Assembly (NCBI RefSeq): GCF_003600155.1
Contig: NZ_QWLD01000050.1
Span: 1-64,000 of the forward strand
DNA length: 64,000 nucleotides
Direction: 5' to 3'
Source of the DNA: Nesterenkonia muleiensis
Lineage (GTDB): Bacteria > Actinomycetota > Actinomycetes > Actinomycetales > Micrococcaceae
The notes beneath the pieces were generated by a model. That model saw only the letters and a program-made list of their open reading frames with translations, was not told the DNA's origin and ran no database searches. Shown piece after piece: positions 27,607 through 34,288 of the stretch (position 1 is the stretch's first letter; each line of letters begins with the position of its first letter). A program made the position numbers and the translations under genes.

Positions 27607-29054
27607 CAGTCATCACCTCCCGGAGCGTCACCGTCCGGTATGCCGGTGTCGACGGCGCCGAATAGCGCGCGGGCCTCGGCCACCAAGGTGATCGACCCGG
27701 TGATCAGAAGTCCCCCAGTCTCGGAGGCCTGGCGCTCATCGATGCGCGTCACCGACCAGGCGATGGCCTCGTCGAGCTGATCTGTGGTGTGGATCTGCTC
27801 CTCGCGGAAGCCGGCATCCAGCGCCAGCTCTGCCAGCTCCGCCGCGGGGACGGCCCGGGCTGACGTGGACTGAGTGAGACAGAGGTCACTGGCCAGTCCG
27901 CTGTACTGGTCGAAGAGCGTCTGGAGCATCTGCCGCGCATCCTTGTCCTGCAGCACGCCGATCACCAGCACCAGCTGCGTGAACTCGAAGCTCTCCTTCA
28001 GCGCCAGAGCACTGGCCTCGAGGCCGGCCGGATTATGGGCAGCGTCGACGAGGATGGCCGGGGAGGAGCGCAGCGTCTCCAGCCGCCCAGGTGAGGTGAT
28101 GTGCTCACATGCTGTGCGAAGGTTCTCGATGTTCAGCGGACGCTCCCCGCCGCCGATGAACGCCTCCAATGCGGCGACGGCGAGCGCGAAGTTCTCCGCC
28201 TGGTGGGCCCCCAGGAGAGGAACCAGCAGATCCGGGTATCGGCCCGCCAGGCCTTGGACAGTGACCTGCTGACCGCCGACTCCAGGAAACCGCGATTCGA
28301 CGCCGAATTCCACGCCCTCAAAGCGGAAGGGCACTCCGGCGGCCCGGGCGGCCTCCAGCAGGACATCGGCGGCGTCGCGCTCCTGCGCTGCGGAGATGAG
28401 GAATCCGCCGGGTTTGATGATCCCGGCCTTCTCCTCAGCGATCTCCTCGATGGTCTCACCCAGCATCTCGGTGTGGTCCAGGCTGATCGGTCCGATGACC
28501 TGGACCGCGGCCTCGGCCACGTTGGTGGCGTCCCAGGAGCCGCCGAGGCCGACCTCCAGGACCATGACGTCCACGGGTTCGTCGGCGAAGATGGCGATGG
28601 CCAGCACAGTCAGCAGCTCGAAGAGGGTCAGCGGCTTCTCACCGCGCTCGGTGAGCTGTAAGTCCACCATCCCGATGTGCGGTCTGATCTCATCCCAGAT
28701 CCGCACAAAGGTCTCATCCGGGACAGGTTTTCCGTCCACCGCGATGCGTTCGGTGACCGGGCCCATATGGGGCGAGCTGTAGCGGCCCACTCGCAAGTCA
28801 TGGGCCAGCAGGCCGGCCTCGAGCATCCGTGCGGTGGAGGTCTTGCCATTGGTGCCTCCGACCTGGATGACCGGTGCGGCCCGCTGCGGCTCACCCAGGA
28901 TCTCCATGACCAGCTGCATGGGTTCCAGACGGGGGCGCATATCGGACTCCGGCGCCCGGGCCAGCATCTCGGCATAGATGCTGGCCACGGAGAACTCGTC
29001 CGCGGCCTCCGGACCGGTGAAGTGCTGGCCGGGGAATTCGGCATGCTCAGGCAT
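27606..29054 (-). CDS. folC: Bifunctional folylpolyglutamate synthase / dihydrofolate synthase
   Basis: About 482 residues. It adds glutamate to dihydropteroate or to folates using ATP in the cytoplasm. The Mur-ligase-type ATP loop [13 protein letters not shown] (about 83), [12 protein letters not shown] and the central [22 protein letters not shown] block identify Fol[13 protein letters not shown] lies in the C-terminal domain. ATG 29054 is chosen over a longer frame because it overlaps the ileS stop by 8 bases. The residues before the fold suit a normal FolC N-terminus. Confidence 0.93.
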
Positions 29055-32000
29055 GGGTCTCCTTGACTGCGGCCACACTGGCGCGGGTCTCCTCGGTGTG
29101 CTCACCGGCAACCAGGTTCAGCTCCACGGTCAGCGTCTCAGCCTTGACCAGCTGGGTGTGAGCCTCCACGGCGCTGATCACCTCGGGAGAGCCGGTCAGG
29201 GTGGTGACGATCCGGTCGGAGACGTTCAGGTCAGCATCCTTGCGGGCGGCCTGGACGCTGCGGACGACGTCGCGGGCGATCCCCTCAGCGATCAGCTCAG
29301 GGGTCAGTGCGGTGTCCAGGACCAGGAAGCCGCCGTTGTCGAGAACGGTGACGGCGGTATCGCCGGTCTCCTCCGAGACTGTGGTGGTCAGGGTGTACTC
29401 CCCCTCCTGCAGCACCAGGCCACCGGCGGTGATCATCCCGTCCGTCACGCTCCAGTCACCGGATTTCGCACCCCTGATGGCGTGCTGGACATCCTTGCCC
29501 AGCCGAGGACCTGCCACCCGGGCGTTGACCACCAGCTGCTGGCCGATGCCGAACTCCGAGGCAGAGACCTCGGCAGCCTCCAGCAGCTTAATCTGCTTGA
29601 TGTTCAGTTCATCCGCGATGATCTGCTCATAGGTTCCTGAGAGGGCCTCAGCCTGCGGCACCACGACGGTCAGGGTGGCCAGCGGCTGGCGGACCCGCCG
29701 TTTGGCCTGCTTGCGCAGCGCTGAGGCGGCAGAGGTCACCACACGGGTCAGTTCCATCAGCTCCACGGCCTGTTCGTCCCGGACATAGGCGGCAGGGTCC
29801 GGCCAGTCGGCCAGGTGCACGCTGCGCCCGCCGGTGAGCCCGCGCCAGACCTCTTCGGAGATCAGCGGCAGCAGCGGCGCGGCCACCCGGGTGAAGGTCT
29901 CCAGCACGGTGTAGAGCACGTCATAGGCGGTGAAGTCTTCCTTGTAGAAACGCTGCCGGGACCGCCGGATGTACCAGTTGGTCAGGGTCTCTGCGAACCG
30001 GCGCAGCGCATCGCAGGCGCTGGAGACGTCGAACTCATCCAGGGCCTCGGTGACCTCGCGGACCAGATCCCCGGTGGCGGCCAGGATGTAGTGGTCCAGA
30101 GGTGAGAGGGCTGCGTCGTCATCAATGGCCTTGGCGGTGTAGCCGGCACCCTGATTGGCCGTATTGGCGTAGAGGGCGAAGAAGTGCCAGGCGTTCCACA
30201 GCGGCAGGAGCACCTGGCGGACTCCTTCGCGGATGCCCTCCTCGGTGACGACCAGGTTGCCGCCGCGCAGGATGGGAGAGGACATCAGGAACCAGCGCAT
30301 GGCATCGGAGCCGTCGCGGTCGAAGACCTCGTTGACATCGGGGTAGTTCTGCAGCGATTTGGACATCTTCTGCCCGTCGGAGCCCAGCACGATGCCGTGG
30401 CTGATCACGTTGGAAAAGGCCGGCCGGTCGAACAGGGCGGTGGCCAGGATGTGCATGGTGTAGAACCAGCCGCGGGTCTGGCCGATGTACTCCACAATGA
30501 AGTCTGCCGGGTGGTGGCCGTCGAACCAGTCGGCGTTTTCGAACGGGTAGTGCACCTGGGCGAAGGGCATCGATCCGGAGTCGAACCAGACATCCAGCAC
30601 GTCCTCCACCCGGCGCATGGTCGAGGTGCCGGTGGGGTCGTCGGGGTTGGGCCTGGTCAGCTGGTCGATCCAGGGCCGGTGCAGGTCCGGCTCCCCGGCC
30701 GCATTGCGCGGGTAGTCGCCGAAGGCCTCCTTGAGCTCTTCCAGCGAGCCGTAGACCTCAGTGCGGGGGTGGTCCGGGTCATCGGAGACCCACACCGGGA
30801 TGGGACTGCCCCAGTAGCGGTTGCGGGAGATCGACCAGTCACGGGCGTTTTCCAGCCATTTGCCGAACTGGCCGTGCTTGACGTTCTCCGGGATCCAGTT
30901 GATGTCCTCATTGATCGACAGCATCCGGTCCTTGAACTGGGTGACGGCCACATACCAGGAGGTGACGGCCTTGTAGATCAGCGGAGTCTTGCAGCGCCAG
31001 CAGTGCGGGTAGGAGTGCACATAGGACTGTTCGCGGACCAGCCGGCCATCGGCTCTGAGTCGGTTGATGATGGTCCGGTTGGCCTCGAAGACCTGCACTT
31101 CGGCGATATCGGCCAGTGGGGTGCTCCCGTCGGGGAGGGCTTGGGCGAACATGGGAAGGAAGGCCCCGGCGGCGTCCACGGAGAGGATCACCGGGATTCC
31201 GGCGTCTTCGGAGGACTTCTGGTCCTCCTCGCCGTAGGCGGAGGCCTGGTGGACCAGACCGGTGCCGTCGGTGGTGGTCACATAGTCCTCGATCAGCACC
31301 CGCCAGGCGTTCTCGGTGCCCCAGGCCGACGTGTCCGCGTAGTAGTTCCACAGCGGTTGGTACTCCAGCTGGGCGAGATCCTTGCCGAGGTAACGTCCCA
31401 CCACGGCAGCCTGAGCAGATTCTGCCGCGGAGACGTCCTCGTGATCCTCGAATCCGAGGTCTTTGGCGTAGTCAGCCACCAAATCCGCAGCGATCATGTA
31501 CTTGCCCGGCATAGCGCCGTCTGCGGGAGCTTCGACCACCGCGTATTCGACCTCTGGGCCTACGGCGACTGAGAAGTTGGTGGGCAGGGTCCAGGGGGTG
31601 GTGGTCCAGGCCAGCAGGTTCACCCCTTGGAGCTGGTCACCGAGCATGCCTCCGCCGGTGATCGGGAACGTGACGGTCACCGAGGGGTCCTGGCGCTCCT
31701 GGTAGACCTCGTCGTCCATGCGCAGCTCATGGTTGGACAGCGGGGTCTCGTCCTTCCAGCAGTAGGGCAGCACCCGGAAGCCCTGGTAGGTCAGGCCTTT
31801 GTCGTGAAGCTGCTTGAAGGCCCAGATGACCGATTCCATGAATTCGACGTTGAGCGTTTTGTAGTCATTCTCGAAGTCGACCCAGCGGGCCTGCCGGTTG
31901 ACGTAGGCCTCCCACTCTTTGGTGAACTTCAGCACGTTGTTGCGGCAGGCGTCGTTGAAGTGCTCGATGCCCATGGCTTCGATCTCGGCCTTGTCCTTCA

Positions 32001-32364
32001 TGCCCAGATCCTTCATGGCGGCCAGCTCGGCGGGCAGACCGTGGGTGTCCCAGCCGAAGCGGCGCTCCACACGCTTGCCGCGCATAGTCTGGTAGCGCGG
32101 GACCAGGTCCTTGACGTATCCGGTCAGCAGGTGCCCGTAGTGCGGCAGGCCGTTGGCGAAGGGCGGGCCGTCATAGAAGACGAACTCCTCAGTCTCGGGC
32201 CGGGAGTCAATGCTGGCTTGAAATGTACCGTCGGCCTCCCAGTACTTCAGGATGCGCTCCTCGATCTCCGGGAAGCTCACAGAGGCGGGGACCCTGCGCT
32301 CACTGCTGGTCTGGGCCGAGGCAGAGCTCGCGCGGGGGTATGTGGGAGAGGAATTCTCAGTCAT
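29047..32364 (-). CDS. ileS: Isoleucyl-tRNA synthetase
   Basis: A 1105-residue class I synthetase that charges tRNA-Ile. The HIGH-type motif appears in [14 protein letters not shown], the editing domain lies in the middle, and the KMSKS motif is in [23 protein letters not shown] and the tryptophan-rich zone are as in the long eukaryote-like IleS type. ATG 32364 is preceded by AGGA at 8 bases; an ATG three codons earlier and a TTG further up are possible. The gene is headed by a T-box leader, so its expression should rise when tRNA-Ile is uncharged. It is the first gene of the chain to ndk. Confidence 0.95.
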
Positions 32365-32419
32365 GAAGGGCATCCTGGCGGTACGGGCTGATGGTCGTCT
32401 CTGCAAGGACGTCTCTCTT

Positions 32420-32465
32420 TGACCCCAGCGGGATTCGAACCCGCATTACCTCCCTGAGAGGGCGG
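32420..32465 (-). pseudogene. tRNA-Glu(CUC)-like 3' half embedded in the ileS leader
   Basis: Read on the minus strand, the 46 bases contain an anticodon arm with loop CTCTCAG (anticodon CUC, U33 and A37 in place), a TAAT variable loop, a perfect T arm (GCGGG/CCCGC around TTCGAAT), and a TGGGGTC acceptor strand plus A. The anticodon stem has one G-A mismatch. No matching 5' acceptor strand or normal D arm lies upstream, where the T-box core is found instead, so it cannot fold as a full tRNA. No CCA follows. Confidence 0.6.
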
Positions 32466-32646
32466 CAAGGCCAAGAACAACGCGGTACCACCTTGCTTGC
32501 ACAGTGCCTGGTATTCACACCGTGCCGCTTCATGACTGCTGTGACGGGCTTACCCGTCCGGTTCTACTGGGGAGACGGGGCGACGTCGTCGTCCTCTTCT
32601 CCTGTTCCTCCGGAAGCTCACCGGTGATAGCCGGATCAAAGCTGCT
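32465..32646 (-). promoter_or_regulatory. T-box leader of ileS (ultrashort stem I, actinobacterial type)
   Basis: The minus-strand RNA contains the specifier hairpin around GGCTATCACCGG with an ATC isoleucine codon at 32626-32628, followed by the GAGC...CCGGAGGAAC block seen in actinobacterial ileS leaders. An ACGGG/CCCGT hairpin follows, and then the near-invariant T-box core AAGGTGGTACCGCG (32481-32494), whose TGG pairs with the tRNA acceptor end. There is no terminator with a T-run between it and ileS, so control is likely at translation, as described for this class. Confidence 0.88.
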
Positions 32647-32739: not shown

Positions 32740-33255
32740 ATGCGCCGGATCAGGATTCTTAAGCCCACCGACTCCGGAGCGATCACCAGCCTTCTGCGAA
32801 CCAACCGAGAATATCTGGCACCGTGGGAGCCAGAGCGGACCGAAGCTTACTTCACCGATGATGCTCAACGCGAACTTATCCAAGAAACCCTCAAGGAACA
32901 CGCAGCTCAGCGCTCCACTCCATTCGTGATTCTCGATAACGGTGACACCGTCATCGGACGGTTGACGCTGAGCGGCATTACCCACGGTGCCTTTCAATCT
33001 GCCGCTATGGGCTATTGGCTCAGCCAAGACTGTCGAGGGAGAGGATTTGCTACCGAAGCAGTTGCTGAAGCCGTTCGGTTCGCCTTTGACGACCTGGGAC
33101 TTCACCGCGTACAAGCCGAAACCCTCCCTCACAATGCTGCTTCCCAGCGAGTCCTCGAGAAGAACGGTTTCCGAGAGTACGGGTTTGCGCCGAAATACCT
33201 GAAGATCGCAGGGCAGTGGCAGGACCACATCCTCTACCAGTTGCTGGCCGAATAG
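32740..33255 (+). CDS. GNAT family N-acetyltransferase (RimJ/RimL-like)
   Basis: A 171-residue acetyl-CoA-dependent acetyltransferase. The start RIRILKPTDSGAI, the central MGYWLSQDCRGRGFATEAV (acetyl-CoA pyrophosphate loop) and NAASQRVLEKNGFREYG are the standard RimJ/RimL blocks. Relatives acetylate ribosomal protein N-termini or small amines, and the target is not known here. A TACAAT element (32728-32733) ends only 6 bases before the ATG, so the message may be leaderless. The codon use and base composition look less GC-rich than the flanking synthetase genes, and a decayed toxin gene lies just downstream, so this may be an acquired patch. Confidence 0.88.
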   Translation: MRRIRILKPTDSGAITSLLRTNREYLAPWEPERTEAYFTDDAQRELIQETLKEHAAQRSTPFVILDNGDTVIGRLTLSGITHGAFQSAAMGYWLSQDCRGRGFATEAVAEAVRFAFDDLGLHRVQAETLPHNAASQRVLEKNGFREYGFAPKYLKIAGQWQDHILYQLLAE

Positions 33256-33308
33256 CCTTCGCTCTTCCTGGACCGTTTCTCTGCCAGACCGGCCCATTTG
33301 CGCCGAGC

Positions 33309-33522
33309 GAGACGCTGCGGACGATCCGCCGCTTCGAGTACGCCGAGTTGCTCACGCCAGCTGAGGCCGAGCGGTATGTCCACGTCATCTCCACCACAAG
33401 GTGAGCCCCTACGACGCCGCCTATGTTGCCATCGCTGAGCGGACCGGCCGCTTGTCACACTTGACAAGCGACTGGCGCGGGCTGCCACGAACCTGGGCGT
33501 AGAGGAGAGCATCCCTCAGTAG
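33309..33522 (+). pseudogene. Decayed PIN-domain (VapC-like) toxin
   Basis: Three short segments in different frames read as parts of a VapC-like protein. The first is ETLRTIRRFEYAELLTPAEA, ending at a stop near 33404. Next is SPYDAAYVAIAERTGR from 33404, the hallmark helix with the conserved Asp. After a one-base shift comes LVTLDKRLARAA, containing the second acidic site, and the tail ends at the TAG at 33520-33522. The N-terminal catalytic strand is not found and no VapB antitoxin is present. No intact product can be made. This fills most of the gap between the GNAT gene and mgtC. Confidence 0.65.
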
Positions 33523-33580
33523 GGCAGGTATCTGGAAAGTGAGAGGTGTGGATTCAAAGCTCCCGGCGTAGGGTCGGGGG

Positions 33581-34288
33581 ATGGAGATCGACCTCATCCC
33601 TGACACCCTCGGCACCGAGGCCCTGCTGCTGTTCTGCGCGTTCGTGCTCTCTGGGGTAATCGGCCTGGAGCGGGAGATGCGGCAGAAGTCCGCCGGGTCC
33701 CGCACCCATATTCTGGTGGGCCTGGGCGCGGCACTGTTCACCCTGGTCTCTGCCTACGGTTTTTCTCACCTGCTCGGCGACGACGTCATCCTGGACCCTT
33801 CCCGCATCGCCGCCCAGATCGTCTCCGGGATCGGATTCATCGGTGCAGGAGTGATTTTTGTGCGCCAGAACATCGTCTCCGGACTGACCACTGCTGGGTC
33901 CATCTGGGTCACTGCGGCGGTCGGCATGGCATGCGGAGCCGGGATGCCGATCATCGCCGGGCTGACAGTGGTGTTCTACCTGCTTGCCGTCACTGTGGTC
34001 ACTTGGGTCGCCAAGAAGCTGCCCAAGCAGGGCCGAATCAGTCGCTATGACATCCGCTACCAGGACGGCCGTGGCATCCTCCGCGACGTGCTGGTCACCG
34101 CCTCGGAGCTGGGCTACGAAGCGGCGTTGGACAGCACCCGGCGCAAAGAGACCGACGAGGGCCCGGTGGTCGATGCCCAAATGGCCTTCTCCCGCAAGCA
34201 GTACCTCTCCCCCGATGCCCTGCACCAGCGTCTCAGTGAGCTCGACGGCGTGTTGGAAGTCCGCACCATCGAACGCGACCACGACTGA
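33581..34288 (+). CDS. MgtC/SapB family membrane protein
   Basis: A 235-residue protein. Four to five membrane segments occupy residues 15-145 and hold the family blocks GVIGLEREMRQKSAGSRTHILV and IVSGIGFIGAGVIF. The C-terminal cytoplasmic part (about 150-235) is ACT-like in pattern. Family members help cells survive low magnesium or phagosome-like stress, partly by restraining the F-type ATPase, and others are simple transport-associated proteins. The gene stands alone, convergent with valS, and a strong hairpin follows it. Confidence 0.9.
   Translation: MEIDLIPDTLGTEALLLFCAFVLSGVIGLEREMRQKSAGSRTHILVGLGAALFTLVSAYGFSHLLGDDVILDPSRIAAQIVSGIGFIGAGVIFVRQNIVSGLTTAGSIWVTAAVGMACGAGMPIIAGLTVVFYLLAVTVVTWVAKKLPKQGRISRYDIRYQDGRGILRDVLVTASELGYEAALDSTRRKETDEGPVVDAQMAFSRKQYLSPDALHQRLSELDGVLEVRTIERDHD

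Follow-up and report, generated by a model that had tools for sequence, protein, structure and literature searches.

The ileS gene and its leader

The window analysed here is the whole 64,000-nucleotide stretch of Nesterenkonia muleiensis DNA (genome G000). Its minus strand carries ileS, the gene for isoleucyl-tRNA synthetase (Table 1), whose product matched the Pfam domains tRNA-synt_1 (3.8e-128) and Anticodon_1 (2.1e-28). The closest named relatives of the protein, among 80 that were kept, came from N. sphaerica (85 percent) and N. ebinurensis (82 percent). A program-made list of open reading frames starts the gene at a TTG codon upstream of the ATG at 32364. Genes for a GNAT acetyltransferase and for MgtC lie divergently upstream of the ileS leader (32740-34288, plus strand), and are followed by valS on the minus strand.

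The preliminary description had placed a translational T-box with an ATC specifier in front of ileS, and this assignment held. A search of 701 bases with the covariance model RF00230 produced a match at 32648-32455 on the minus strand, with a score of 36.3 bits (E 2.2e-6; gathering score, 93). The same model matched 6 of 13 relatives' loci at 20.4-52.1 bits, all below 93, and no match was obtained in the remaining seven at E values up to 10. Low or absent scores in relatives, together with the 36.3 bits obtained here, indicate that this general model gives leaders of this kind low scores. The Ile specifier ATC (32628-32626) is located in a 6-nt loop, CUAUCA (32630-32625), of a short stem I, as in class III T-boxes. 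It is followed by an AGUAGA motif, presumably the stem II S-turn; CAGTAGA precedes the T-box in 25 of 28 Nesterenkonia leaders. The T-box core reads CAAGGUGGUACCGCG at 32495-32481, with the bulge UGGUACC (32490-32484) between helices A1 and A2. The labels used for the leader parts largely follow the T-box literature (PMC7583486 and PMC10482949).

Leaders were extracted from 28 of 30 genomes of the genus (none was obtained from G008 and G026). All 28 have the same order of elements: CAAGG or CGAGG, UGGUACCGCG, a loop, GUCCU(U/C)G, AGGA close before the start codon, and AUG. Judged by complementarity, GUCCU(U/C)G can pair either with CAAGG/CGAGG or with AGGA in every one of them. In a larger set of 102 leaders, of which 88 were parsed and 14 were not, helix A1 covaries by A-U, G-C, and C-G exchanges, with 2 of 440 cells non-standard (the 3' strand was taken as the best-pairing candidate, which favours good pairing). 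A ribosome site was found in 75 of them; here GUCCU does not always match AGGA fully, with a non-standard pair at the first position in 17 leaders and at the last in 7. The ileS leader is most simply read as a class III translational T-box of the usual kind, with its core intact. By analogy with known class III T-boxes, GUCCU would pair with AGGA and mask the ribosome site when uncharged tRNA-Ile is absent, and uncharged tRNA-Ile would stabilise the antisequestrator (A1/A2) and free AGGA.

Table 1. Coordinates of the ileS gene, its leader elements, and related features.
Feature	Position	Strand	Basis
ileS, isoleucyl-tRNA synthetase	29047..32364	minus	ATG at 32364-32362; Pfam matches
Possible 29-codon upstream ORF, starting inside the tRNA piece and overlapping the ileS start	32357..32446	minus	translation only
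AGGA, ileS ribosome site	32373..32376	minus	AGGA close before ATG in 28/28 genus leaders
GUCCUUG, A1 3' strand and alternative anti-Shine-Dalgarno strand	32404..32410	minus	28/28 genus leaders
70-nt insert, apical loop of A2	32411..32480	minus	loop comparison with genus leaders
tRNA-Glu(CUC) 3' half, nucleotides 27-73, 44/47 identical	32420..32466	minus	genome's own gene
Intact T arm (GCGGG UUCGAAU CCCGC)	32428..32444	minus	sequence and fold
A1 5' strand CAAGG, T-box bulge UGGUACC, A2 5' base GCG	32481..32495	minus	sequence; A1 covariation
Stem III hairpin of the discriminator	32499..32525	minus	sequence and fold
AGUAGA and ACGGG-UAAG-CCCGU hairpin (stem IIA/B)	32544..32568	minus	sequence
Stem I apical part, CCGG-CUAUCA-CCGG	32621..32634	minus	sequence; inside RF00230 match
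Intact tRNA-Leu(gag) gene	G000:C55:271924-272011		

A piece of a tRNA-Glu gene caps helix A2

The apical loop of A2 is 70 nt long in the window, compared to 7-55 nt in the other 27 Nesterenkonia leaders, and most of it can be aligned with the 3' half of the tRNA-Glu(CUC) gene present elsewhere in the same genome (G000:C3:301-373). The local score of the match was 79, and 100 dinucleotide-shuffled versions of the loop reached at most 26. Against the tRNA-Glu(ctc) genes of the genus, the piece showed 94 percent identity in 19 of 30 genomes and between 89 and 91 percent in the remaining 11. A tRNA-Glu 3' half had earlier been reported to follow the T-box directly; its identity was borne out over 47 nt, but 14 bases, UUGUUCUUGGCCUU (32480-32467), separate it from the T-box core. 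The three differences from tRNA-Glu fall in the anticodon arm and just 5' of the T arm; both the T arm and the 3' strand of the acceptor are free of substitutions, in agreement with the earlier reading. The tRNA 5' half is missing, as had also been stated: ARAGORN returned no tRNA, and the Rfam tRNA model gave a weak score of 14.8 bits (gathering score, 29). The same two results rule out a tRNA gene or pseudogene as such.

The fragment had been thought to occupy the position of the sequestrator and the ribosome-site control region. This was not the case. GUCCUUG and AGGA are both located downstream of the insert and are kept across the 28 leaders, and so the insert constitutes the tip of A2 and leaves the switch strand intact. 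A displaced sequestrator was ruled out by comparison with relatives' leaders. When A1 and an open bulge were imposed on the fold, the insert was predicted to extend A2 and to form both the T arm and an anticodon-like arm; under the same constraints, 7 of 7 tRNA-matching A2 inserts of the genus folded as A2 extensions. For the insert stretch alone (76 nt), a three-way junction containing these two arms was predicted, but the stretch was no more stable than its shuffles (z -0.55; 49 of 200 folded equally well), and for the whole leader z was -1.72, with 7 of 100 shuffles as stable.

The three-way junction and the unaltered T arm and acceptor strand could be taken to mean that the tRNA-Glu half is a functional tRNA mimic, kept for cutting by RNase P/Z or for binding of a synthetase or EF-Tu, and thereby controlling ileS. 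The insert also weakly matches the mascRNA model (19.2 bits) as well as the tRNA model. Both matches, however, are below the gathering scores (42.5 in the case of mascRNA), the only substitute for the missing 5' acceptor strand of the tRNA is a predicted helix rich in G-U pairs, and a stability equal to that of shuffles argues against such a role too. The leaders of other species, described below, bear on it further.

We also considered that the insert created an upstream open reading frame, beginning at 32446 and 29 codons long, whose translation is coupled to that of ileS. The frame overlaps the ileS start by 8 nt, and according to the alignment, its GGAGG-UA-AUG arose within the tRNA piece through the substitutions there. 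GGAGG, however, stands only 2 nt before the AUG, and a spacing of 2 nt is too short. We regard a coupled upstream frame as extremely unlikely.

Pieces of other tRNAs in leaders of the genus

A2 loops at 110 ileS loci were compared with the 41 tRNAs of the window genome. A loop of at least 18 nt was obtained at 69 loci (33 had shorter loops and 8 none); 17 of these were from the genus, including two duplicates, and 52 from other genera. Eight loops scored above 100 of 100 shuffles, all of them from Nesterenkonia (seven genomes). The 52 loops from other genera scored at most 24 against these query tRNAs, which are all from Nesterenkonia, and their lowest shuffle counts (1, 2, 4, and 4 of 100) are about the level expected by chance. 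A second query pooled 146 tRNA sequences from ten Nesterenkonia genomes, four of them represented by near-full sets. Of the A2 loops, 12 were too short for this comparison, and 7 of the remaining 16 scored higher than all 40 shuffles. Stem III loops were cut out of 24 of the 28 leaders, and one of these, from G001, was positive.

The strong cases besides that of the window were as follows. In G015, the A2 loop contains an antisense piece of tRNA-His (30 nt at 90 percent). In G025, it contains an antisense piece of tRNA-Ser, identical to that species' own gene at 30 of 32 positions with one gap; this insert scored 39 against the tRNA-Ser of G000 and 52 against the tRNA-Ser of G025 itself. In G001, Stem III contains the anticodon arm of tRNA-Arg(acg) (nucleotides 24-52) in antisense orientation, with 96 percent identity over 25 nt. 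A full tRNA-Arg(acg) gene was not found in the G001 assembly, and the donor gene was thus not seen there. A decayed antisense tRNA-His piece in G029, a sister of G015, is a supporting case. Weak cases were a 23-nt tRNA-His-like piece in G004, whose score rose from 27 (with tRNA-Lys of G000) to 29 with its own tRNA-His, a 17-nt tRNA-Phe piece in G006, and a 20-nt tRNA-Ser piece in the A2 loop of G001. The G001 leader (L036) therefore bears two tRNA-like caps, the tRNA-Arg arm on Stem III and a tRNA-Ser-like T arm on A2.

The comparison of relatives' leaders, to which the preliminary description had pointed, thus yielded GUCCU(U/C)G and AGGA throughout and pieces of other tRNAs in sister leaders. 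The tRNA of origin differs between neighbouring species, and the pieces occur in either orientation. On a tree of IleS (29 rows, at most 420 residues, with modest support at several forks), the A2 pieces require at least three changes when strong calls are counted and six when weak ones are included; the Stem III piece of G001 is one event beyond these. Judged from sequence, there are at least four captures of tRNA pieces (Glu, His, Ser, and Arg) at A2 or Stem III tips in Nesterenkonia. Not all caps could be traced to tRNA, since the 55-nt A2 loop of G014 (L248) matched no tRNA and nothing else in its own genome below E 0.5, and the long A2 loop of G028 matched none of the 146 pooled tRNAs.

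These leaders also bear on the proposed mimic. Effects on decoding, on processing by RNase P/Z, or on binding to the synthetase had been suggested for the fragment, and the comparison lent them no support: other tRNAs occupy the same loop, and the His or Ser pieces of G015, G029, and G025 are antisense, neither of which is accounted for by a tRNA mimic on the sense strand. Given these observations, a functional mimic is very improbable.

Background level of tRNA-like matches

To what extent do tRNA-like matches occur outside of leader loops? When the 41 tRNAs were searched with blastn against the 110 loci (587,618 bp, with seven contigs present twice as judged by equal lengths), all six matches scoring 35 or more, from five genomes, were in leader hairpin loops. 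In the 28 genus loci, where A2 loops make up 675 of 86,415 bp, the four top matches of the 146 pooled tRNAs (scores 79, 50, 45, and 45) were likewise all in leader loops. At a score of 35, the G029 piece tied with a coding-region match common to related species. Since a coding-region match also reaches 35, the short pieces of G006, G004, and the G001 A2 loop (17-23 nt) are near background. None of ten stem I and stem II loops beat all 100 shuffles, the lowest count being that of the window's own loop (2 of 100).

Some candidates were rejected. Loops of G005, G007, and G010, which by eye are tempting as decayed tRNA-Glu, were not above shuffles, and a Leucobacter Stem III match to tRNA-Pro had a background-level score of 32.

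Searches of whole genomes recovered the leader sites of G015 (tRNA-His, E 6e-5), G001 (tRNA-Arg, E 5.7e-5), and G025 (tRNA-Ser, E 0.009). Short matches with similar E values were present elsewhere in G022 (3.1e-5), G016 (3.5e-4), G021 (6.4e-5), and G002 (3.7e-4); tRNA genes or further fragments may account for some of these non-leader matches. In G000, 89 sites carry the T-arm motif GGTTCRANYCC, against 19 for a reversed control; 35 of the sites are in tRNA genes and 54, the leader included, are outside. Reading 20 of the 53 sites outside both the leader and tRNA genes revealed one clear tRNA piece, from tRNA-Leu. This is a 3' copy of tRNA-Leu(gag) of about 60 nt (G000:C55:275580-275720, L173), on the same strand as the intact gene and 3.6 kb beyond it, and it resembles the trace left by an integrated element. 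In G022, 23 nt identical to the 3' end of tRNA-His (C9:91871-91893) are found on the same strand as the gene and 45 kb from it; this copy is likely an island attachment site.

Leader loops were also surveyed more widely. In the family, where 199 of 395 genomes matched, no tRNA piece was recognised by eye outside the genus among the matches listed. At the order and class levels, a very degenerate pattern for T-arm-like A2 loops, which missed the window's own 70-nt loop, matched 17 of 396 and 20 of 394 genomes, respectively; no convincing tRNA piece was seen by eye among these matches, many of which were not leader-like.

Another possibility is chance convergence, in which GC-rich hairpins with 7-nt loops come to resemble T arms. 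Short T-arm-like hairpins do occur elsewhere, as with CCGGGAUCGAUCCCGG in two g84 genomes, and they are about as long as the weakest Nesterenkonia cases. The window match, however, spans 47 nt, acceptor strands and an anticodon arm are among the matched parts, and the G025 piece fits the tRNA gene of its own species best. Antisense tRNA pieces, moreover, would not yield a T loop. The evidence for G000, G015, G001, and G025 is strongly contrary to convergence, which we regard as having a next to negligible probability.

Origin and likely role of the captured pieces

Elements that attach at tRNA 3' ends could have mis-inserted in the leader and left a 3' part of the tRNA behind, and a mobile-element scar had been named as one origin of the window's fragment. 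The window piece, which runs to nucleotide 73, does correspond to the 3' end of a tRNA gene, and in best alignments, six of eight pieces end within about 2 nt of nucleotide 73, a count that includes three weak pieces and two species sharing one event. Their extents are 27-73 for Glu and 44-73, 38-72, and 51-73 for His, with Ser pieces reaching the last bases and the Phe piece nucleotide 71. The genus also contains 3' copies of the kind described above, from tRNA-Leu(gag) in G000 and tRNA-His in G022. Against this, the Stem III piece of G001 is an internal anticodon arm, different tRNAs would require different integrases targeting one loop, no element lies between the T-box core and ileS in the leaders that were read, and no integrase was found by Pfam among the four neighbouring genes checked (those for IleS, GNAT, MgtC, and ValS). 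The proposed scar keeps a small probability for pieces that end at a tRNA 3' end, as most of them do.

The explanation that we favour, and consider probable, is that the window contains a class III ileS T-box in which a captured tRNA-Glu gene piece forms the tip of A2, and that such captures are recurrent in Nesterenkonia. The presence of both orientations, of various tRNAs, and of an internal arm argues against use of the pieces as tRNA. The insert would rather be a self-closed spacer with a passive role. In the modelled fold, the tRNA piece would act as an extra stem that clamps the two A2 strands together, and as a cap it is most likely either passive or of mild tuning effect. The tips of Stem III and A2 appear to tolerate self-pairing inserts in Nesterenkonia. 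Arms of tRNA self-pair in either orientation, and retention of the pieces would thus be explained if the tips accept any self-pairing insert. We infer that capture occurred at the level of DNA; repair or template switching at hairpins is our guess as to how.

A bolder version, which we think unlikely, is that a targeted process brings tRNA 3' ends and arms into the discriminator hairpins of this riboswitch, whose own ligand is a tRNA bound by its 3' end, for example via tRNA or its cDNA kept close to the leader. The variable architecture of T-boxes would then be partly built from tRNA, and the caps would tune the balance between the ON and OFF states.

Comparison with known systems

The class III T-boxes, of which the Nocardia farcinica ileS leader is an example, share with the window leader a short stem I whose apical loop of 6 nt contains the specifier, a stem II, and a T-box discriminator, and the N. 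farcinica leader precedes the same gene; the definition of the class is that of PMC10482949. The window leader differs in having a 70-nt extension of A2, 47 nt of which are a tRNA-Glu gene piece.

Remnants of tRNA 3' ends at the integration sites of genomic islands are similar to the leader pieces in that both are partial tRNA genes, mostly the 3' part. Unlike these remnants, the leader pieces lie inside an mRNA leader, away from a tRNA gene and with no island seen, come from various tRNAs in both orientations, and include an internal arm. For annotation, this is a warning that tRNA remnants in the leader of an essential gene need not be tRNA genes or island borders. The predicted acceptor-like stem and anticodon-like and T arms of the window insert are reminiscent of mascRNA and other D-armless tRNA-like folds. 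The insert, however, scores less than half of the mascRNA cut-off and is part of a bacterial leader.

In the open-licence literature, represented mainly by titles and the beginnings of abstracts, we found no report of tRNA pieces in T-boxes; as far as this literature goes, recurrent capture of tRNA pieces by T-box hairpin tips is new, on a known riboswitch. It makes two questions testable: whether these hairpins are free spacers, and what repeatedly brings tRNA pieces to one leader. According to the review PMC7583486, insertions in Stem III and above A2 are frequent in translational T-boxes and may help folding or contact tRNA, and insertions of unknown structure and function occur in every T-box domain. 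The Nesterenkonia inserts are found in the same two places, Stem III and A2, and the source of several of them is tRNA genes. They thus provide a concrete origin for several otherwise unexplained T-box insertions, and do so in an RNA that binds a tRNA as its ligand.
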